Origin: Rhodoferax sp. PAMC 29310 | GTDB taxonomy: Bacteria; Pseudomonadota; Gammaproteobacteria; Burkholderiales; Burkholderiaceae_C | Length of the DNA: 64,000 bases | Direction of reading: 5' to 3' | Assembly (NCBI RefSeq): GCF_017948265.1 | Contig: NZ_CP072852.1 | Location: 1,364,001 to 1,428,000 of the forward strand | Shown: positions 14,664 through 24,645 of the stretch, piece after piece | Numbering within the stretch: the first letter of the stretch is position 1 | How the letters are laid out: each line of letters opens with the position of its first letter | Made by a program: the position numbers and the translations under genes | The notes under the pieces: model-generated | The model's database searches: none | What the model was told of the DNA's origin: nothing | What the model saw: the letters and a program-made list of their open reading frames with translations, nothing else

Positions 14664-15995
14664 GAGGGTGTCCCGAATTTTGTGTAAACGGCGGTTAAGT
14701 TAGACGCGCGGCATGCGCTCGTCAAACTGAATGGTAAAGCGGTTCAGAGCAGCCTTCCAATCCCGAATCGGCATCGTCCATTTCTGGCTGATGTTGTTCA
14801 GTGCCAGATAGAACAGCTTGAACACTGCGTCCTCAGTTGGGAACGAGCCGCGGGTCTTGGTTATTTTGCGCAGGCTCATGTTCACGGACTCAATGGCGTT
14901 GGTCGTGTAAATCACTTTTCGGATGTCTGGCGGGTATTCAAAGAACGGTATCAAGTGTGTCCAGTTGCGCCGCCAGGAGCGCCCAATCGGAGCGAAGGAA
15001 TCGTCCCATTTGACCTCGAATGCCGTGAGTTGTCGCTCAGCTTCGGATTCAGTGGGCGCAGCGTAAATCAGCCGCAAATCCGCGGCGACTTCCTTGCGCT
15101 GTTTCCACCCCACGAAGTTCAGGCTGTGACGCACCATGTGAACAATGCAAAGCTGCACCGTCGCCTTGGGGAAGACTGCCTCAATGGCGTCAGGGAAACC
15201 TTTGAGCCCATCTACGCAGGCGATAAAGATGTCAGCCACGCCCCGATTCTTCAGTTCAGTCACCACCTGCAGCCAGAACTTGGCCCCTTCGGTTTGGGCC
15301 ATCCACAGGCCCAGTACCTCTTTGAGGCCGTCCAGGTTGACGCCAATGGCCAAGTACAGGGCCTTGACCCGCACAGTACCGTTGTCGCGCACCTTGACGT
15401 GAATGCAGTCCATGTAGACGATGGGGTACAGCGCCTCCAAGGGGCGCGACTGCCAGGCTTTGACCTCGTCCATGACGGCGTCGGTCACGGATGAAATCAG
15501 GGCAGGAGACACTTCGGCGCCGTACATCTCCTGCAGATGGCCTTGAATCTCGCGTACCGTCATGCCTCGGGCATACAGCGACAGTATCTTGTCGTCAAAG
15601 CCGCTCCAGCGGGTCTGGTGTTTGCCAATCAGTTGGGGCTCGAAGGTGCCGGCGCGGTCACGGGGGATTTCTATGGGTAGCTGGCCAAAATCGCCTTTGA
15701 GCGTTTTCTTGCTGCACCCGTTGCGGGTGTTGCCCGCTTCATTGGCAACCAACTGGTTCTTGCCGTGACCCAGGTGGCCGGTCAATTCGGCTTGCAAAGC
15801 TCGCTCGACCAAGGCTTTGGTGAGCTGCGTCAAGAGGCCATTCTGGCCAATCAGGTCTTCGGGCTTTTTGTAGTCGGCCAACAGGGCGTCAATCAGCTCG
15901 GCGGGTAAGGGTTTCATCTCTACGGTCATCTCGGCTCCATGCAAGACAGCAGTTTCCTGCCAAATAACCGTTTACACAAAACTTCTTACACCCTC
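14664..15995. mobile_element. IS256-family insertion sequence
   Basis: The ends are imperfect inverted repeats. The left end reads GAGGGTGTCCC then TTTTGTGTAAACGG, and the right end, read inward, is GAGGGTGTAAG then TTTTGTGTAAACGG. Between them is one transposase gene on the minus strand. The element is about 1.33 kb, normal for the family. No matching 8- or 9-base target duplication is seen at the flanks, which suggests a rearrangement after insertion or that the true ends differ by a few bases. Confidence 0.85.
14700..15944 (-). CDS. IS256-family transposase (mutator type)
   Basis: The 414-residue transposase appears intact. The DDE catalytic residues are recognisable: the first aspartate in VYMDCIHVKVRD near residue 179, the second in FIACVDGLKGFPDAI near residue 245, and the glutamate in IYTTNAIESVNMSLRK near residue 350. 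The N-terminal domain includes KKPEDLIGQNGLLTQLTKALVERALQAELTGHLGH, typical of the family. The start may be the ATG at 15944 or the in-frame ATG at 15929 (MTVEMKPLP), which fits homologues better. The right inverted repeat lies 29-51 bases upstream of the coding start, so the promoter probably overlaps it. Confidence 0.93.
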   Translation of the reverse strand: MHGAEMTVEMKPLPAELIDALLADYKKPEDLIGQNGLLTQLTKALVERALQAELTGHLGHGKNQLVANEAGNTRNGCSKKTLKGDFGQLPIEIPRDRAGTFEPQLIGKHQTRWSGFDDKILSLYARGMTVREIQGHLQEMYGAEVSPALISSVTDAVMDEVKAWQSRPLEALYPIVYMDCIHVKVRDNGTVRVKALYLAIGVNLDGLKEVLGLWMAQTEGAKFWLQVVTELKNRGVADIFIACVDGLKGFPDAIEAVFPKATVQLCIVHMVRHSLNFVGWKQRKEVAADLRLIYAAPTESEAERQLTAFEVKWDDSFAPIGRSWRRNWTHLIPFFEYPPDIRKVIYTTNAIESVNMSLRKITKTRGSFPTEDAVFKLFYLALNNISQKWTMPIRDWKAALNRFTIQFDERMPRV

Positions 15996-16184
15996 GGCGC
16001 ATGGGACCTGCGGCCAACGGCGCCCATCTGAGAATGTCCAAACCCATATGCTAATTCCATGTGTACTGAACCGCTTGGTCGTCGACCAGCGGTCATTCAT
16101 TACACGGGGCTCTTCCTATGCGCAACGCTGACCCCCATTGTTTCTATTTTCACAGCTCGGCGCTCAAAAGTTCAGGACTCTGGT

Positions 16185-16209
16185 GTAAGGATCGCTGAAC
16201 GGTAGCGAC
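16185..16209 (+). promoter_or_regulatory. Possible ECF-sigma promoter of the bufferin operon
   Basis: GTAAGG at 16185-16190 and CGAC at 16206-16209, separated by 15 bases, resemble the GTAAC-n16-CGA pattern of some extracytoplasmic-function sigma promoters that drive DUF2282/DUF692 operons. The site is 67 bases upstream of the DUF2282 start. No sigma-factor gene lies nearby. The match is partial and could be chance. The rest of 15996-16275 shows no gene. Confidence 0.25.
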
Positions 16210-16275
16210 TACCTCTATGCAAGCCGACCTTGTTGGCAAGCACCTCTCAACCCTCAATCCCTTCAGGAGATCACC

Positions 16276-16596
16276 ATGAACAACACCATCACCCGCCGCA
16301 ACGCCGCCCGCATCGCCTCGGGCGCGGCCCTCGCCTTCGCCATGGGCGCCGCCCTGACATTGGCCGCCAGTCCCGTTGCCGCCCAAAGTGCCGACAAAGA
16401 AAAATGCTTCGGCGTAGCACTGCAAGGAAAAAACGACTGCGCTGCCGGCCCCGGCACCACCTGCGCCGGCACCTCCAAGGTGGACTACCAGGGCAACGCT
16501 TGGTCGCTGGTGCCCAAAGGCAGCTGTGAGAAGACCGCATCGCCCAAGTCACCTTCAGGCATTGGTCAGCTCGCGGCGTTTAAAGAGAAGATCTGA
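16276..16596 (+). CDS. bufA: Bufferin-type precursor peptide (DUF2282)
   Basis: The 106-residue precursor has a long N-terminal signal region ([25 protein letters not shown], cleavage probably after PVAAQ near residue 37) and a mature part with four cysteines at positions 44, 55, 63 and 84. The segments [18 protein letters not shown] and VPKGSCEK are diagnostic of DUF2282. In characterised systems the cysteines are converted by the DUF692/MNIO enzyme to thiooxazole-type heterocycles, and the exported peptide buffers copper in the periplasm. The C-terminal tail (about residues 87-106, ending LAAFKEKI) seems longer than in many relatives. The start follows an AGGAG ribosome-binding site (16263-16269). 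It is the first gene of a four-gene operon. Confidence 0.88.
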
Positions 16597-16633
16597 ATTC
16601 AACCGGGAGTGCGACACCAACGGAGACAACACC

Positions 16634-17605
16634 ATGAGCCAAACCACTGTTTTTGGGCCTGTCACGCCCAGTGTCGCTACCCAGACCAGCCCTCCCCTGA
16701 ATTGGCCGCTGCCACACCGGGCTGGGCTCGGTCTCAAACCCGAACACTTTGCCCATGTCCACGCGTTTCAGCCTGATGTGGGTTTTTTTGAAGTACATGC
16801 AGAGAACTACCTGGTGGCAGGTGGGCCCATGCACCACCACCTGACCCGCATTCGAGAACAGTACCCCTTAAGCATCCACGGCGTGGGGCTGTCCATTGGC
16901 AGCGAAGAGCCGCTGGACGCCAGCCACCTGAACTCGGTGGCCCAGTTAGTGGATCGCTACCAGCCTGCCGTCTTTTCCGAACACCTGGCCTGGTCCAGCC
17001 ACGGCGGCGTTTTCCTCAACGACCTGCTGCCCCTGCCTTACAACCTGCTCACGCTCAGCCGCGTGTGCGACCACATTGATCAAGTCCAGAACTGCCTTGG
17101 CCGCGACATGCTGCTGGAAAACCCGTCCACCTATGTGGAGTTCGTCAGTTCCACCTGGAGCGAGGGCGACTTTCTGCGCGAGGTGATTCGCCGCACTGGC
17201 TGCGGCCTGCTGCTGGATGTGAACAACGTCTATGTGTCGAGCATCAATCATGGGCGCGATCCGACGCGCAGCCTGTGTAAAATGCCCTGTCATGCCACCC
17301 AGGAAATCCATCTGGCAGGTTTTGCCGAAGACTTGGATGGTGCCGGCGACCGCCTGTTGATCGACGCCCACGCTTCATCCGTGGCAGACGCGGTCTGGGC
17401 GCTGTATGACACCGCGCTGTCACTGACGGGGCAACAGCCCACGCTGATCGAACGCGACAACGACCTGCCCGAATTCGCAATCCTTTTGCGAGAAGCTCAA
17501 CTGGCCGAGCGCCACATGGGCTCGTTGGGTGTACTCGACAACCAAGCCAAGAAGCCCTGCCCGCTACGCACCCGCTACGCACCGGCGAAGGAGACTTTTG
17601 TATGA
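16634..17605 (+). CDS. bufB: MNIO-family peptide-modifying enzyme (DUF692)
   Basis: The start chosen is the ATG at 16634 ([10 protein letters not shown]), preceded by GGAGA. The 5' extension of the open frame overlaps the bufferin gene and is not protein-like. The 323-residue protein is a TIM-barrel multinuclear non-haem iron oxidase. Candidate metal ligands are His82 ([11 protein letters not shown]), Glu117/His118 (FSEHLAW), Glu162 ([11 protein letters not shown]), Asp195/Asn198 and His206 ([16 protein letters not shown]), His226 (EIHLAGF), Asp244/His246 (LIDAHAS) and Glu273 ([11 protein letters not shown]). The full set seems intact. In bufferin systems it oxidises precursor cysteines. It overlaps bufC by 4 bases (ATGA). 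Confidence 0.92.
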
Positions 17606-18372
17606 GCACGCAACACACCTGGTCACAGGCCCTGTTGGACCCGGCCCATGCCGCACCCATCGGCCTCGTCACCTGGAACCACAGCGACCCGGCGCGGCGT
17701 CTCGCCGTGTACCGCAACAACATGATGGTCTCGCTGGTGGACGCGCTGGCCAACACTTTTCCCGTCACAGAAGAACTGGTGGGGGAAGAATTTTTCCGCG
17801 CCATGGCTCAGGTTTTTGTACGCGCCCACCCGCCGCGCACCCGCGTGCTTTGCCACTACGGCCACGAACTTCCGAGCTTCATTGCACAGTTTTCTCCCGC
17901 CGCTGGCTTGCCCTATCTGGCCGATGTCGCGCATCTGGAATTCTTGCGCCTTCAGGCCTTGCATGCTGCCGACGCACAGAGCATGGACGCCCAGCGCATC
18001 GCGGCCGTGATGCAGGACACCGACGCCTTGCCCTCGGTGCGCTGGCAACTCGCCCCCAGCCTGCACCTGCTGTGCTCGCCGCACGCGGCCGTGTCCGTCT
18101 GGGCGACACACCAGGAAGGCAGCGGCATCGCGCTCGAAGACATCGATCTACAGCGGGCCGAATCGGCGTTGATTTTTCGCAGTGGGTGGGACGTCATGGT
18201 CTTGCAAATATCACCCGGAATGACCGAGCTGGTGAACCACCTTTTGAGCAAGGCCACGTTGGGCGAGGCCATCGACCAAGCCTTTGCCTGCGAACCTGAT
18301 TTCGACCTCTCACGAGCCCTGGCCGACCTGATACGCCACGGACTGCTGATCGACGTGCAACGCTCCCACTGA
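17602..18372 (+). CDS. bufC: MNIO partner protein (DUF2063)
   Basis: This is a 256-residue DUF2063 family protein. The N-terminal segment [46 protein letters not shown] is typical of the family, whose members form a complex with the DUF692 enzyme and help bind the precursor leader. It shares an ATGA overlap with bufB, so the two proteins are likely made in fixed ratio. The C-terminal part (about residues 150-256) is less conserved and may recognise the peptide. A ribosome-binding site (AAGGAG) lies within the end of bufB. Confidence 0.9.
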
Positions 18373-18417
18373 GTTAGCGCACGGCCGTTTTTAGCCCAAT
18401 CAACCCAGGAGACCTTC

Positions 18418-18951
18418 ATGAACACCTTTACCACCCCCAACGCTGGCGCTGACACCTCCGGCTTGATCCACCGGCTGGGCGTGCTGCTGCAAAACATCCA
18501 CCGCATGATGAGCCATCTGCCCAACACCCTGCTGGCTTTCATCGCCCGCTTCTCCATCGCTGCGGTGTTCTGGAAGTCGGGCCAGACCAAGATCGAAGGC
18601 TTGGCTATCGACATCGTCAGCGGCAACTTCACGCTCGGCATGCCCCGCCTATCGGACAATGCCATCTTCCTCTTCAAGGAGGAATACAAGCTGCCACTCC
18701 TGTCGCCAGAAATCGGCGCAACCATGGCCGCGCTCGGTGAACACATCCTGCCCATCTTCATCTTGTTTGGCCTAGTCACCCGGCTTTCGGCGTTGGGCCT
18801 GTTGGGCATGACGATGGTGATCCAGATCTTTGTGTACCCCGACGCTTACCCCACCCACGGCACCTGGGCCGCCGTGCTGCTCTACCTGATGGCCCACGGT
18901 CCAGGCAAGCTGTCGATCGACGCCTGGATCGCACGCCGCCACGGCGGCTGA
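18418..18951 (+). CDS. DoxX-family membrane protein of the bufferin cluster
   Basis: The 177-residue protein has about four predicted membrane segments, beginning with TLLAFIARFSIAAVFWKSGQTKIEG (the family signature) and including ILPIFILFGLVTRLSALGLLGMTMVIQIFVYP and WAAVLLYLMAHGPGKLSID. DoxX-like proteins are often the fourth gene of DUF2282-DUF692-DUF2063 operons, where a role in redox or membrane handling of the product is suspected but not shown. It lies 45 bases after bufC with its own AGGAG site, so it is probably co-transcribed. Confidence 0.88.
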   Translation: MNTFTTPNAGADTSGLIHRLGVLLQNIHRMMSHLPNTLLAFIARFSIAAVFWKSGQTKIEGLAIDIVSGNFTLGMPRLSDNAIFLFKEEYKLPLLSPEIGATMAALGEHILPIFILFGLVTRLSALGLLGMTMVIQIFVYPDAYPTHGTWAAVLLYLMAHGPGKLSIDAWIARRHGG

Positions 18952-18994
18952 GCCAACTCACTGGCGGGTACATACAAAGCAGACGGAGCACATC

Positions 18995-19840
18995 ATGGGC
19001 ATGTTCACCGGTTGGTTCGGGTCCCACCTGGCCCGTTATTTATCCAACGAAGCACACATCCACAGCAGCGCCCCGCCGACCCGGGCCGAGCGCTTGCTAG
19101 AGACGCTGCAACCGGGCGATGTGCTGCTGGTGGAAGGCCACAGCCGCTTCAGCACCGCCATCAAATACCTCACCCAATCGACCTGGTCACATGCGGCTCT
19201 GTATGTGGGGTCCCAGGCTCTGGAGGCCAGCCAAGCGCCGGCTAGGCATTGTTTTGTCGAGGCCGATGTGTCCGAGGGCATCCGAAGTGTGCCGGCGGCC
19301 CTGTTCGAGGGCTATAGCACCCGCATCTGCAGGCCCGCCGGGTTGAGCGGGGATGAGATCGCGCAGGTGATCGCTTATGCGGTTGCCCGTCTTGGTCACC
19401 GGTACGACCTGCGCAACGTGTGGGACCTAGCACGTTACCTGCTGCCCACACCACCGGTGCCGGTGCGTTTTCGGCGACGCATGTTGTCGCTCGGCAGTGG
19501 CGACCCGACCCGGGCCATCTGTTCTACCCTGATCGCGCAGGCATTCCAGTCCATCAACTACCCCATACTCCCCATCATCAACAGCACCAGTCTCGACTGC
19601 CCCGACTGCCCCCATTGCGTGCAAGAGATTCTCAAAGTGCGTCACCACAGCCTCTTTGCCCCGCGCGACTTTGACGTGTCGCCGTATTTCGCGGTGGTCA
19701 AGCCGAGCCTACAGGCCGGGTTCGATTTCCATGCGTTGAACTGGGAAACCGACCAGCTTCCCGGTTTCGCCCCCGAAGGAGGCGCTGGCGCCCCGGTCAC
19801 CGCGCCTCCGAAAATGCCAGCGAGGAACGTGTACTGCTGA
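18995..19840 (+). CDS. Permuted papain-like amidase (YiiX/YaeF type, NlpC/P60 superfamily)
   Basis: The 281-residue protein begins with a GDVLLVEGHSRFSTAIKYLTQSTWSHAALYVG block (about residues 41-73), in which the histidine is the catalytic base of circularly permuted NlpC/P60 enzymes. The catalytic cysteine is in RAICSTLIAQAFQS (about residue 173). This order (His before Cys) defines the permuted family, whose members are proposed to act on amide or acyl bonds in lipids, peptides or the cell wall. A CPDCPHC cluster near residues 202-208 and a C-terminal Cys are unusual and might bind metal. No signal peptide is obvious. It follows the DoxX gene after 43 bases on the same strand, so it may be part of the bufferin transcript. 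Confidence 0.82.
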   Translation: MGMFTGWFGSHLARYLSNEAHIHSSAPPTRAERLLETLQPGDVLLVEGHSRFSTAIKYLTQSTWSHAALYVGSQALEASQAPARHCFVEADVSEGIRSVPAALFEGYSTRICRPAGLSGDEIAQVIAYAVARLGHRYDLRNVWDLARYLLPTPPVPVRFRRRMLSLGSGDPTRAICSTLIAQAFQSINYPILPIINSTSLDCPDCPHCVQEILKVRHHSLFAPRDFDVSPYFAVVKPSLQAGFDFHALNWETDQLPGFAPEGGAGAPVTAPPKMPARNVYC

Positions 19841-20303
19841 CGCCGGCTTGACAACCCAAGTCGGAATGCGGTGATTGCCAAGCAAGGGGCAATGGACTGG
19901 ACGTTGCCCCTCGCGGCACAACGACAGGCTGCAGATGGCAGGTCGATGTCAGCTACCCGGCCTCGCCTTGAAAGGTTACTATGACCGCCATGCGTCGGGA
20001 ACCACCGCTGGCGGTCGAATCCCCAACGTCTCTTTTCAGCCTTTGTGCGTCATCTCTTCGCTGCTCTTGAGCAAACCTGAAATTGTGGCTATCAGGATGC
20101 GCTCTGAATGAGAGGTGCAACCTGTTCGCAGGCTATCAATTCGTCGGCATCACACACGTCCAGTGGCATGTTCGTTGGCGCAGGGGGAAAATTGATAGCG
20201 TTGCGCATCTACGCCAGCCGCGCTTGTTTTTGACCGGCGTCAAGCCTGGAAAAGCGGCAACATGCCACAGTCAGACTGACATGCCCTAAGTGCTTGCCCG
20301 GCC
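19841..20303. other. 463-bp gap with no convincing gene
   Basis: Short open frames here lack coding character. A hairpin with 7-bp arms GGGGCAA/TTGCCCC (19886-19910) could end transcription of the bufferin-amidase unit, although no T-run follows. A second possible stem is CCGCCA/TGGCGG (19988-20012 region). Around 20190 the sequence ATTGATAGCGTTGCGCA resembles the first half of the dispersed 47-bp element but the second half does not match. Confidence 0.4.
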
Positions 20304-21065
20304 GTGCCTACTGAATCAACCCCAATCCAACCCTCCCGCCACCCTTCCGATACCGCTGGGCGGCCTGCGGTGTTCATTGCGCGGGGGCTGACCAAGACTT
20401 ACCAAATGGGCGAGGTCAAGGTTCATGCTTTGAAGGAGGTTGACCTGAGTGTGTACCGGGGTGAATTCATTGTGTTGCTGGGCCCGTCAGGCAGTGGCAA
20501 GTCCACTCTTTTGAATATTTTGGGTGGGCTGGACCGCCCCAGCAGCGGCCAGGCCCAGTTTGATGATCATGACCTGGCCGCGGCTACCGACGCGGAATTG
20601 ACAGAATACCGGCGCGAGCATGTCGGTTTTGTGTTTCAGTTCTACAACCTGATTCCCAGCCTGACGGTGCGGGAAAACGTGCAATTGGTGACAGATATTT
20701 GTGAGAACCCCATGCCTGCCGAAGAAGCGCTGGGCATGGTAGGCCTGGCGGACCGGCTGGATCACTTTCCGTCCCAGTTATCGGGTGGAGAGCAACAGCG
20801 CGTCGCCATTGCGCGAGCAATTGTGAAACGCCCCCAGGTGCTGCTCTGCGACGAACCCACTGGTGCGCTGGACTACATCACCGGCAAACTGGTGCTGGAG
20901 GTGATTGAAAAGATCAACGCTGAGTTGGGCACCACCACCATCGTCATCACCCACAACGCGGCCATTGGCGGCATGGCAGACCGGGTGCTTTACCTGGGCG
21001 GCGGGCACATTCAGCGGGTTGAGCCGAACGCCCACAAGGTCAAACCGTCCGAGTTGGCGTGGTGA
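20304..21065 (+). CDS. ABC exporter ATP-binding protein (LolD/MacB/YbbA type)
   Basis: This 253-residue ATPase starts at GTG 20304 (an ATG start is absent in this region). It has Walker [17 protein letters not shown] near residue 60, Q-loop [17 protein letters not shown], signature [14 protein letters not shown], Walker [13 protein letters not shown] and switch histidine VITHN. This set, especially the GGLDRP-SG and PTGALD wording, marks the mechanotransmission or lipoprotein-release subfamily that pairs with FtsX-type permeases. It is followed by such a permease and a membrane-fusion protein, so the trio is an export or extraction machine. Substrate unknown. Confidence 0.92.
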
Positions 21066-21075
21066 AGGGCATGGG

Positions 21076-23439
21076 GTGAAAGCGCTCAACCGCAAACTGC
21101 TGCGCGACCTGCGCCTGATGTGGAGCCAGGCGCTCACCATCGCGCTGGTGGTGGCCAGCGGCGTGGCCGGGTTTATTGCCAGCTTCAGCGCCTACGACTC
21201 TCTGTCATGGTCACGCGATCGTTATTACGCCGATGCGCGTTTTGCCGATGTGTTTGCCACCCTGAAACGTGCGCCGTTGGCGCTGGAGCGCCAATTGGCC
21301 GCGCTGCCCGGCGCCGCGCATGTGAAAACATCCCTCAAACAAGACGTTCCCATCAGCCTTCCGAATGTGGCCGACCCCATCATTGGGCGTTTGATTGGCC
21401 TGGACGCCCAGACGCCCCAGCGACTGAACAAGGTGGCGCTGCGACGCGGAAAACTGCCAGCACCACACCAAAGTGGCGCTATCGAGGTGCTGGTCTCAGA
21501 AGGCTTTGCCATCGCCCGCCAATTGCACCCCGGGGACCGGATTCACGCCCTCATCAACGGAAAACGAGAAGAACTGCTGATCGTTGGTCTGGCTTTGTCC
21601 CCCGAGTACATCTTTGCCGGCTTGGCAGGCTCACCGGACCAACGGGGGTTTGGCGTTTTCTGGCTCGACCGCCAAGCTCTGGCAGCCGCCTACAACATGG
21701 AGGGTGCCTTTAACCAGGTCGCCGTTCGGCTGGCGCCCGGCGCCACCGAAGGCCCGATCATTGACGGATTGGATCGGCTGCTGGCGCCCTATGGCGGCGT
21801 GAGCGCGCATGGGCGTGACCAACAAATGTCGGACGTCATGCTCAGCTCCGAGATCAAGCAACAAAAGGCCATGGGCACGGTGTTGCCCAGCATATTTCTG
21901 GCGGTGGCGGGTTTCCTGCTCAACGTCGTGCTGAGTCGCCAGATCGCGACGCAGCGTGAGCAAATTGCGGCCTTGAAGGCACTGGGCTATCACAACCGCG
22001 CCATTGGCCAGCATTACCTGACCCTGGTGTTGCTCATCGTGGCGCTGGGCGTGGGCATTGGCATTGCGCTGGGGGCCTGGCTGGGGCACGGTTTTATGGG
22101 CTTGTACGCCGAGGCGTTCCGGTTTCCTACGCTGGCTTACCGGGTCAAACCGGTGCTGTTGTTGGCTGCAGTGGGCGTGGCGGTACTGGCGGCGGTGTTG
22201 GCCACCCTGTTTGCCATTCGGGACACGGTTCGACTGGCTCCGGCAGAGGCCATGCGCCCCCCTGCCCCTGGCAATTTCAAGCCCATGCTGCTGGAGCGCT
22301 GGGGCCTGCAACACTGGATGAGCCCGGCCGCCCGAATGGTGGTTCGCACGATGGAACGGCGCCCGCTGCGCACGGGCCTGACCATTTTTGGCATCGCGGC
22401 GGCCATGGCCATTGTGATCACCGGTGCCTTTTGGCGAGACGCCATTGGTGAGCTGTTTGACAACCAATTCCACCAAGTCTGGCGGGGTGACGTGTCGCTT
22501 TCATTGATTGAGGTCAGCCCGGCCCGGGTGTTGCATGACTTGGGCAGGCTGCCCCACGTCACGGCCGTCGAAGGGACGCGTACCGTGGCTGTGAAGCTGG
22601 TGAACGCGCACCACCAATGGCGCGGCGCCATTCAGGGCAAACCCGCTCAGCCCGAACTCATGCGTGTGGTGGGGCGTGGTTTTAGAGTGCTGACACCCCC
22701 AACCTCGGGGTTGTTGATCACCGACCGCCTGGCCAATCGCCTTCAAGTCGGCCCTGGCGACTGGGTGCGGGTGGAATTGCAAGAGGGGCGCCGTGAGGTG
22801 ATGTCCCTGCGGGTGAGCGGTGTGCTCACTGAAATTCTGGGCATGAACGCCTACATTGAACGCCGCACCCTGAACCGGCTGCTTCGTGAGGGCGATGTCG
22901 TCAACCAGGCCACGCTGGCGGTGCAGCGAGGGCACGAGGTTCAACTGTTGAATACGCTGAAGGACTTGCCTCGGGTGGTGGGTGCCGTCAGCAAATCAGT
23001 CATGAAACAGAACATTGAAGAGGTCACCGCTCGCAACATTCTGGTGTTCAGTGTGGTGCTTACCGCGTTTGCCACGGTGATTGCCATTGGCGTGGTTTAC
23101 AACAGTGCCCGCATTGCTCTGGCTGAGCGCGCGTGGGAACTGGCAAGCCTTCGGGTGCTGGGGTTCACCCGGGCCGAGGTGTCCACTTTTTTGCTGGGGG
23201 AGCTTGCCATTGAGATCGTGCTGGCAACGCCCTTGGGCATGGTGCTCGGCTATCTGCTGGCCTCTGGCATCGTGCAATTGATCAAAAACGAGGAGTTTGA
23301 CTTTCCCATGGTGATATTGCCCGCCACGTATGCCTACGCGGTCATTGCGGTGGTCATTGCCGGACTGGTCAGCGCCTTGGTGGTGCGTCGCAAGGTGGAT
23401 ACGCTGGATTTGGTGGCGGTCCTTAAAACCCGGGAATAA
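21076..23439 (+). CDS. ABC transporter permease with two FtsX domains
   Basis: The start chosen is the GTG at 21076 (VKALNRKLLRDLRLMWSQ), 10 bases after the ATPase stop. The open frame continues upstream but is within the ATPase gene. The 787-residue protein starts with a membrane segment (ALTIALVVASGVAGFIASF), followed by a long extracytoplasmic domain. A first FtsX block of three helices comes from about residue 270 (VLPSIFLAVAGFLLNVVLSRQIATQREQIAALKALGY). A second half repeats the layout, with its FtsX block from about residue 655 (FSVVLTAFATVIAIGVVYNSARIALAERAWELASLRVLGF). This doubled form resembles YbbP-like permeases rather than single-block MacB. It acts with the flanking ATPase and HlyD-like protein. 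Confidence 0.9.
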   Translation: MKALNRKLLRDLRLMWSQALTIALVVASGVAGFIASFSAYDSLSWSRDRYYADARFADVFATLKRAPLALERQLAALPGAAHVKTSLKQDVPISLPNVADPIIGRLIGLDAQTPQRLNKVALRRGKLPAPHQSGAIEVLVSEGFAIARQLHPGDRIHALINGKREELLIVGLALSPEYIFAGLAGSPDQRGFGVFWLDRQALAAAYNMEGAFNQVAVRLAPGATEGPIIDGLDRLLAPYGGVSAHGRDQQMSDVMLSSEIKQQKAMGTVLPSIFLAVAGFLLNVVLSRQIATQREQIAALKALGYHNRAIGQHYLTLVLLIVALGVGIGIALGAWLGHGFMGLYAEAFRFPTLAYRVKPVLLLAAVGVAVLAAVLATLFAIRDTVRLAPAEAMRPPAPGNFKPMLLERWGLQHWMSPAARMVVRTMERRPLRTGLTIFGIAAAMAIVITGAFWRDAIGELFDNQFHQVWRGDVSLSLIEVSPARVLHDLGRLPHVTAVEGTRTVAVKLVNAHHQWRGAIQGKPAQPELMRVVGRGFRVLTPPTSGLLITDRLANRLQVGPGDWVRVELQEGRREVMSLRVSGVLTEILGMNAYIERRTLNRLLREGDVVNQATLAVQRGHEVQLLNTLKDLPRVVGAVSKSVMKQNIEEVTARNILVFSVVLTAFATVIAIGVVYNSARIALAERAWELASLRVLGFTRAEVSTFLLGELAIEIVLATPLGMVLGYLLASGIVQLIKNEEFDFPMVILPATYAYAVIAVVIAGLVSALVVRRKVDTLDLVAVLKTRE

Positions 23440-23442
23440 AAA

Positions 23443-24645
23443 ATGAAGCCTTCGGAAAAGAACATGAAACAAAAACTGATCTGGGTCGTGGCCGGTCTGG
23501 CGATGCTGGCACTGCTGGTTTGGGCGTTGATGCCCGCCCCGAGGGAAGTGGAAGCCGCGTTGGTCACCCAAGGTCGGTTTGAACGCGCGGTTCAGGAGGA
23601 CGGGAAGACCCGTCTGAGGGAACGCTACCAAATATCTGCCCCACTCAGTGGCCACCTCGATCGGATCACCCTGAAACAGGGCGACGACGTCGTGCAGGAT
23701 GCTCAGGTGGCTCGCCTGTGGCCCAGCATACCGCCCTTGCTAGACGCACGCAGCCGCGCTGAACAACTGGCTGCCAACTCGGCCTTGCAGGCCGCCCTCG
23801 TCCGATCACAGACCATGGTGGAGCGGGCTGGCGCCGCACTGGCACAGGCGCAGGCCGATCTTCAGCGCAGCCAATCGCTTGAGAAACAAGGTTTCGTGGC
23901 GCCCGCCAGGCTAGAAGCGGATCGCCTCAACCTGCGCCTACGCGAGCAGGAGTTAGCCAGCGCCCGCCAGGACATTGTGGCCGCTCGCTTCACGCTGGCC
24001 CGCTCGCAGGCCACGCTGGAGCCGGTATCAAGTAACGGCCGGGCCGGCTCACCGTTTATCGTTCGCTCGCCTGTGACCGGCAAAATATTGAACGTCCTGC
24101 AGCCCAGCTCAGGCATGGTCATGGCGGGCACACCTTTATTGGAAGTGGGTGATGCCACCCGCCTTGAAGTGGTGGTCGACGTGTTGACAGAAGATGCGGC
24201 CCAAATTCGTCCTGGCACGCCCGTCCAGTTGAGCAATTGGGGGGGGCCAGACACCCTTCACGGCACGGTTCGACGGGTGGAGCCAAGCGCCTTCACCAAG
24301 GTATCGGCTCTGGGCGTGGAGGAGCAACGCGTCAATGCACTGATCGACATCCTGTCACCGGCTGCGACATGGTCGAATTTAGGCGATGGTTTCAAGCTGG
24401 ACGTGCGAATTCTGGTCCAAGTAGAAGAAGACGCCGTGCTGGTTCCCGTGAGCGCCTTGTTCCCCCTAGGCACTCGCTATGGCTTGCTGGTGCTGGACGG
24501 TGGACGTGCGAGATTGCAGGAAGTTGACGTCGAAGCGCGCAACGGCAGTAGCGCCTGGATCAAATTTGGGCTCCCCGTGGGTACCCAAGTGATTGTTTAC
24601 CCTGACAGCCAGCTTCAAGACGGCGAGCGGGTCAAGACACGCTAA
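23443..24645 (+). CDS. HlyD-like periplasmic adaptor (membrane-fusion) protein
   Basis: The 400-residue protein has one N-terminal membrane anchor (KLIWVVAGLAMLALLVWALMP). A biotinyl-lipoyl-like half follows (RERYQISAPLSGHLDRITLKQGDDV), then a coiled-coil hairpin (about residues 100-190, rich in Ala, Gln and Arg), a second lipoyl half (FIVRSPVTGKILNVLQPSSGMVMAGTPLLEVGD) and beta-barrel domains. Start is either the ATG at 23443 or the in-frame ATG at 23464, the latter directly before the anchor. It lies 3 bases after the permease stop and surely belongs to the same operon. It would link the permease to an outer-membrane channel encoded elsewhere. Confidence 0.9.
   Translation: MKPSEKNMKQKLIWVVAGLAMLALLVWALMPAPREVEAALVTQGRFERAVQEDGKTRLRERYQISAPLSGHLDRITLKQGDDVVQDAQVARLWPSIPPLLDARSRAEQLAANSALQAALVRSQTMVERAGAALAQAQADLQRSQSLEKQGFVAPARLEADRLNLRLREQELASARQDIVAARFTLARSQATLEPVSSNGRAGSPFIVRSPVTGKILNVLQPSSGMVMAGTPLLEVGDATRLEVVVDVLTEDAAQIRPGTPVQLSNWGGPDTLHGTVRRVEPSAFTKVSALGVEEQRVNALIDILSPAATWSNLGDGFKLDVRILVQVEEDAVLVPVSALFPLGTRYGLLVLDGGRARLQEVDVEARNGSSAWIKFGLPVGTQVIVYPDSQLQDGERVKTR

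Follow-up and report, generated by a model that had tools for sequence, protein, structure and literature searches.

A Buf1 bufferin operon in Rhodoferax that seems to have been split from its own ECF sigma gene by an insertion sequence and a large inversion

Buf1 clusters are described in the main text of PMC12452194 by their core genes, a precursor with four cysteines, and sigma and NrsF genes, and the bufferins characterised in that text carry thiooxazoles on the central cysteines and a disulfide between the outer ones, and bind Cu(I). The class is also named captophorins in the available part of PMC13097082. Control of such operons has been followed in Caulobacter, where sigma-F runs two DUF2282 operons via GTAACC-N16-CGAA (PMC3511200, as far as its text was available), and in Cupriavidus, where the available text of PMC10304878 does not show an RpoQ-dependent gig start and reports that removal of rpoQ raised gig expression, which its authors ascribe to compensation among sigmas.

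The operon described here is one more member of this large known family, with an uncommon regulatory history. We consider it probable that our account holds as a whole, namely that a Buf1 operon with an ECF promoter lost its sigma gene through an insertion sequence (IS) and an inversion and came under control in trans. The account builds on the genes, the ligand positions, the promoter motif, the exchanged IS flanks, the collinearity with relatives on both sides and the stop in the sigma gene, all of which were observed directly. The main texts of the bufferin papers, in the parts available, gave no sign of the inversion or of the stop in the sigma gene, nor of the C92 gene or the zf-HC2 partner.

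The operon and its modifying enzymes

The window, by which we mean the whole 64,000-nucleotide stretch analysed (NZ_CP072852.1, positions 1,364,001 to 1,428,000), carries the bufferin operon bufA-bufB-bufC-DoxX on its plus strand at 16276-18951, as read from the list of open reading frames and the Pfam profiles. The features are as follows.

14664..15995, minus strand: IS256-family insertion sequence between hutH and bufA (PF00872 396 bits, NF033543 410 bits, 28-nt inverted repeats)
16184..16211, plus strand: ECF-type promoter motif TGTAAG-N16-CGACTA (relatives' upstream regions, genome match)
16276..16596, plus strand: bufA, Buf1 (DUF2282) precursor (PF10048 85.3 bits, homologue alignment, cysteine spacing)
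16634..17605, plus strand: bufB, MNIO (DUF692) bufferin maturase (PF05114 341.2 bits, NF050167, ligand positions)
17602..18372, plus strand: bufC, DUF2063 partner, PME type 1 (PF09836 90.9 bits, predicted fold)
18418..18951, plus strand: DoxX-family membrane protein (PF07681 54.1 bits)
18995..19840, plus strand: C92-family (YaeF/YiiX-like permuted papain-like) protein (PF05708 35.7 bits, cut-off 27)

The DUF2282, MbnB_TglH_ChrH (PF05114), DUF2063 and DoxX matches all exceed the curated Pfam cut-offs. The four adjacent plus-strand genes of the preliminary description, including its DUF2063 partner with an ATGA overlap onto bufB and its DoxX gene, are confirmed at these positions. The mechanical open reading frame of bufB begins at GTG 16526, and ATG 16634 is preceded by a GGAG site. 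From bufA to the C92 gene the intergenic gaps are 37, -4, 45 and 43 nt, all five genes are open reading frames, and each is preceded by a purine-rich site. Among 80 related loci bufA adjoins the MNIO gene in 79, DUF2063 is found in 80 and a DoxX match in 69; these loci are the best 80 of 174 confirmed, ranked by similarity to the operon's MNIO, and some of the stretches are short, so the fractions of 80 describe close relatives.

BufB passes the NCBIfam profile for an "MNIO family bufferin maturase" (NF050167, 376.1 bits, cut-off 310). The available text of PMC10880893 gives the iron ligands of TglH as His71, His107, Glu151, Asp184, Asn187, His216, Asp229, His231 and Glu258. In the alignment with 8hci, BufB E162, D195, N198, H226, D244, H246 and E273 fall directly on seven of these, whilst H82 and H117 lie outside that alignment and were assigned by motifs aligned with 3bww and MbnB and by spacing. 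All nine iron-ligand positions are thus kept, and the apparently full ligand set claimed earlier stands. BufC falls below the NCBIfam cut-off for HvfC (48.2 of 142), and the DoxX protein below that for HvfX (43.8 of 80). A PDB sequence search with BufC gave no match; its predicted model (mean pLDDT 93.8) gave three Foldseek matches at E <= 0.001, 8hci_A, 8hi7_A and 3dee, with TM-scores of 0.49-0.62. We infer that 8hci chain A is the partner TglI, since chain D is named as the DUF692 protein. The protein families, the order of the genes, the ligand positions and the fold of the partner bear out the reading of the locus as a bufferin-type operon.

By analogy with the characterised bufferins, BufA would have its cysteines modified and would bind copper: BufB and BufC would oxidise the central Cys 55 and 63 of the precursor to thiooxazoles ahead of Sec export, Cys 44 and 84 would pair as a disulfide, and the periplasmic product would hold excess Cu(I).

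With the MNIOs of L035-L043, loci mostly from Hydrogenophaga, the operon's MNIO shows 72-79% identity, and with those of the 35 congeners searched at most 67%; a transfer of the operon from a Hydrogenophaga-like donor is possible. Further 3' on the same strand (20304-24645) lie an ABC-transporter ATPase, a permease-like open reading frame and an HlyD-type protein, which we do not count as operon members.

The precursor tail and the C92 gene

BufA has 106 residues, with cysteines at 44, 55, 63 and 84, as previously noted and now confirmed by the PF10048 match and the homologue alignment, and with 22 residues beyond the last of them. Its N-terminus, read by eye, is signal-peptide-like, with positive charges, a hydrophobic stretch and AAQ ahead of residue 38. 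The NCBIfam profiles gave no match for the precursor, a PDB sequence search gave a single match at E 0.19, and the AlphaFold model (mean pLDDT 45) is too poor for use.

The preliminary description had proposed that the tail and the cysteine spacing might define a different product type. This found no support: the spacing of 11-8-21 recurs in 117 of 120 listed homologues (the window protein counted), which were scored among the 7999 candidates that had most words in common with it, and in 115 of the 120 the last cysteine is followed by 22 or 23 residues. As both traits are common to nearly all listed homologues, we reject a new product type drawn from either. A GxGQ tail is present in 56 of 82 precursors, which come from 79 of the 80 related loci (L075 is without a precursor); judged from the record titles, the 26 precursors that lack it are alphaproteobacterial, with tails such as GSLEALDRDLP and GSLTPA, and the 56 that have it are from beta- and gammaproteobacteria, one record aside. 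Because tail type splits alphaproteobacteria from beta- and gammaproteobacteria, the tail is the mark of a clade and not of a new product. Several of its positions are at least 90% conserved in the BufA alignment, and this conservation suggests some role.

Two further observations concern the precursor family. Three Rhizobium loci (L095, L096, L105) carry two tandem bufA genes with differing tails. On plasmids, DUF2282 genes 60-80% identical to the matched part of BufA occur in 247 records, of which 60 are from Escherichia, 17 from Klebsiella and 8 from Salmonella, and 106 of the 247 are predicted to be conjugative.

The C92 gene, on the same strand directly after the DoxX gene, probably belongs to the operon as its fifth member, one beyond the limit set in the preliminary description, and we regard it as accessory. 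Of the 80 related loci, 13 have it immediately after DoxX in the same orientation, 16 carry it anywhere in the stretch, and in 64 it was not seen. Matches to PF05708 occur in 8 of 60 relatives' genomes examined, the own genome included, where this gene is the sole match; in the own genome, G003 and G031 the C92 gene and an MNIO match are about 1.4 kb apart, and in G055 the distance is 4.5 kb. The other four of the eight have C92 away from any MNIO match, one of them (G021) having no MNIO match and its C92 at a contig end. Across 17 aligned rows the permuted pair is kept, the His of SHA(A/S/M) and the Cys of ICS(T/S)LIAQAF, which we take to be the catalytic residues. The main texts of PMC12452194 and PMC13097082, in the parts available, contain no occurrence of C92, YiiX, papain or peptidase, and a literature search found no paper joining Peptidase_C92, YiiX or permuted papain with DUF692.

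A trimmed, acylated or membrane-bound product, made through the tail or the C92 enzyme, is very improbable. It would draw on the conserved and clade-dependent tail positions, on the C92 gene's place after DoxX in those 13 loci and on YiiX, a C92-family member in whose pocket a fatty acid was found (PMC3142127, available text), but tail and spacing belong to nearly all the listed homologues, most of the related loci have no C92 gene in the stretch, and half of the C92-bearing relatives have it away from the MNIO.

The insertion sequence, the inversion and the displaced sigma gene

In four related loci (L035-L038; two Hydrogenophaga genomes and two betaproteobacterial MAGs) a pair of genes for an ECF sigma and a zf-HC2-like protein stands divergent and directly upstream of bufA, with open copies of the sigma gene. 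Such a local sigma/anti-sigma pair, common in Buf1 operons and not required, is absent beside the window's bufA, where the IS256-family element lies with its transposase at 14700-15944 on the minus strand. The genome holds at least 23 full-length, near-identical 1.3-kb copies of this element, a lower bound because 40 of 51 candidates were scored. Exact 8-bp target duplications flank 14 of the 23 copies; another copy has a 6-bp duplication, and the remaining eight, which include the window copy, lack one. The 8 bp to the left of the window copy recur to the right of a far copy at C1:498364-499694, and the 8 bp to the right of the window copy recur to the left of the far one; the two stand in opposite orientation, 878,970 bp apart. 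This reciprocal exchange of flanks between two inverted copies points to recombination between them, that is, to an inversion of about 879 kb.

Comparison with relatives agrees on both sides. A related sigma/zf-HC2 pair adjoins the far copy at about C1:500 kb, and there 5774-6983 of L150, a stretch of the own genome, matches L035 at 5254-4035 with 79.6% identity; on the window side the similarity resumes at L035 5325 (69% over 110 nt), with a good match from 5500. At the other junction, a search of 60 genomes located the oxidoreductase beside the far copy in one, its own. Sampled coarsely with 20 stretches, GC skew reverses its sign at some point from 0.71 to 0.85 Mb. As this lies within the segment inverted (499.7-1378.7 kb), a replication turning point seems to fall inside the inversion.

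An in-frame stop interrupts the displaced sigma gene where region 4 begins; in the part ahead of the stop region 2 passes (52.2 bits) and region 4 fails (12.9 of 25.7). Its zf-HC2 neighbour keeps an open reading frame (24.1 bits, cut-off 22.2). The sigma-adjacent proteins of the own genome at L150 6620-6862, L002 3451-3720 and L150 7252-7479 all belong to zf-HC2 (PF13490), and from their place and family we take them to be anti-sigmas. The main text of PMC12452194, in the part available, has no occurrence of zinc finger or zf-HC2. From these comparisons it seems that an IS insertion and a large inversion split the operon from its own sigma gene: the pair would formerly have stood divergent beside bufA, an IS256-family element would have inserted, and the inversion between two IS copies would then have carried the pair away. 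A literature search did not find bufferin or DUF692 joined with sigma, inversion or insertion sequence.

Two of the 23 copies could instead have been joined to the wrong sides in assembly, with the sigma pair still near bufA. With so many near-identical full-length copies of 1.3 kb, a swap at two of them would give exactly these exchanged flanks, but we consider this improbable: the contig is one closed sequence (completeness 100, contamination 0.31), the exact duplications at 14 copies and the 6-bp one at another indicate that the copies are mostly well placed, and the two copies concerned can be told apart by four internal positions and apparently by the last base. The coarse GC skew is also undisturbed, although it would not reveal an inversion that spans the sign change, and the stop in the sigma gene holds either way.

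Some observations lie beside this reading, in which the IS and the inversion removed the sigma pair. Copies L133 (C1:3265383) and L138 (C1:4414955) have an identical 12-bp left flank, and six further copies besides the exchanged pair are without an exact target duplication; together these may reflect more rearrangement or duplication at this IS. A further ECF sigma/zf-HC2 pair adjoins the interrupted sigma gene (L150 7252-8432, C1:501-502 kb), and pairs similar to this third one lie upstream in L035, L036, L038 and L041. The sigma gene is downstream and convergent in some congeners (L047, L048, L052).

Promoter, present control and described systems

The ECF-type motif ends 64 nt ahead of bufA. 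Allowing at most one mismatch and a spacer of 15-17, it occurs in 34 of 78 related loci, as against 2 of 1560 shuffled regions that preserve base composition only; at two mismatches or fewer the counts are 39 of 78 and 38 of 1560. For this count L075 (no precursor match) and L089 (precursor on the other strand) were left out, the bufA starts were guessed by script, and the first bufA was used where there were two. With the first form of the pattern the window site is the sole match in its own genome, and a backwards control also has one. With C or T (Y) admitted at the first -10 base, after the second bufA upstream region had been viewed, there are two exact genome matches, each of which precedes a bufA gene, at 64 and 85 nt from the start codon; the backwards control of this form has 3 matches against the 2 true ones, and the argument is therefore carried by the place of the matches and not by their number. 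No sigma-70 consensus site was found in 15900-20400 (mean in shuffles 1.2), and sigma-70 control of the operon was set aside.

PF05114, PF10048 and PF09836 each match twice in the genome. The second Buf1 set, at C1:3311.3-3312.9 kb (L002), adjoins genes on the other strand for an ECF sigma, with regions 2 and 4 above cut-off, and a zf-HC2 protein. The two precursors are 54% identical over 54 residues, the second having a shorter and different tail, and the two MNIOs 36% identical over 296 alignment columns. The second operon's sigma gene (C1:3313061-3313642) is intact, and its product is about 40-46% identical to the sigmas of related loci; read by eye, its region 4 helix is nearer to the sigmas of the motif-bearing loci than is that of the third sigma (C1:501502-502014). 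Transcription of the window operon would start from the motif at 16184-16211 and, as its own sigma gene has been moved away and interrupted, would most likely be run in trans by this intact sigma. The Caulobacter sigma-F case is a precedent for such trans-control of bufA, and the Cupriavidus rpoQ results speak against it; it is our best guess from the sequences compared.

The operon might otherwise be silent or decaying, untranscribed under copper stress whilst the second operon alone works. The interrupted sigma gene and the want of a sigma-70 consensus site would fit this, but none of the five reading frames is interrupted, BufB retains its ligand positions and the promoter motif matches exactly (which a recent loss would allow too). 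Moreover, four relatives (L039, L040, L042, L043) retain the motif with 0-1 mismatch and have no sigma gene in the stretch examined, L042 being from the same genome as L035, which has the sigma pair. We therefore regard silence as unlikely and prefer control in trans. An extension to which we give a similarly low probability is a natural rewiring, in which a paralogous sigma took over via an already common promoter, the old sigma gene decays and its zf-HC2 partner stays, together with a C92 enzyme as a fifth component of the operon, whose target would be the product or membrane lipids.

The locus offers a metal-stress operon that has seemingly been cut from its own sigma with the promoter kept, in which cross-talk of paralogous ECF sigmas is directly testable. 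It also brings a promoter signature common to many related Buf1 operons, zf-HC2 instead of NrsF as the sigma partner in these loci, and the C92 protein as a candidate accessory part.

Among described systems, as far as the available texts go, the operon shares the order DUF2282-DUF692-DUF2063(-DoxX) with Caulobacter CC3254-CC3257 and CC2907-CC2905 (sigma-F/NrsF), and with Caulobacter Buf1 an ECF promoter with a 16-nt spacer and two operons per genome (PMC3511200). The hexamers differ, TGTAAG/CGACTA here and GTAACC/CGAA there, as do the anti-sigmas, zf-HC2 here and NrsF (DUF1109) in Caulobacter, and the window operon, unlike those of Caulobacter, has no local sigma and has a C92 gene after DoxX. 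The copper-induced gigPABT of Cupriavidus metallidurans, with its divergent rpoQ-rsqA, is of the same operon type and shares a divergon with an ECF sigma gene (PMC10304878, available text), an arrangement also present in L035-L038; RsqA is predicted to be membrane-bound in Cupriavidus, and the divergon of the window, in contrast to that of gigPABT, is broken by the IS. The captophorins fontiphorin, oxazolin and gonophorin likewise have an MNIO and a DUF2063 partner, which in their case install 5-thiooxazoles, but their precursors are repeat precursors with EGKCG, whereas DUF2282 forms a separate precursor group in the available text of PMC13097082.
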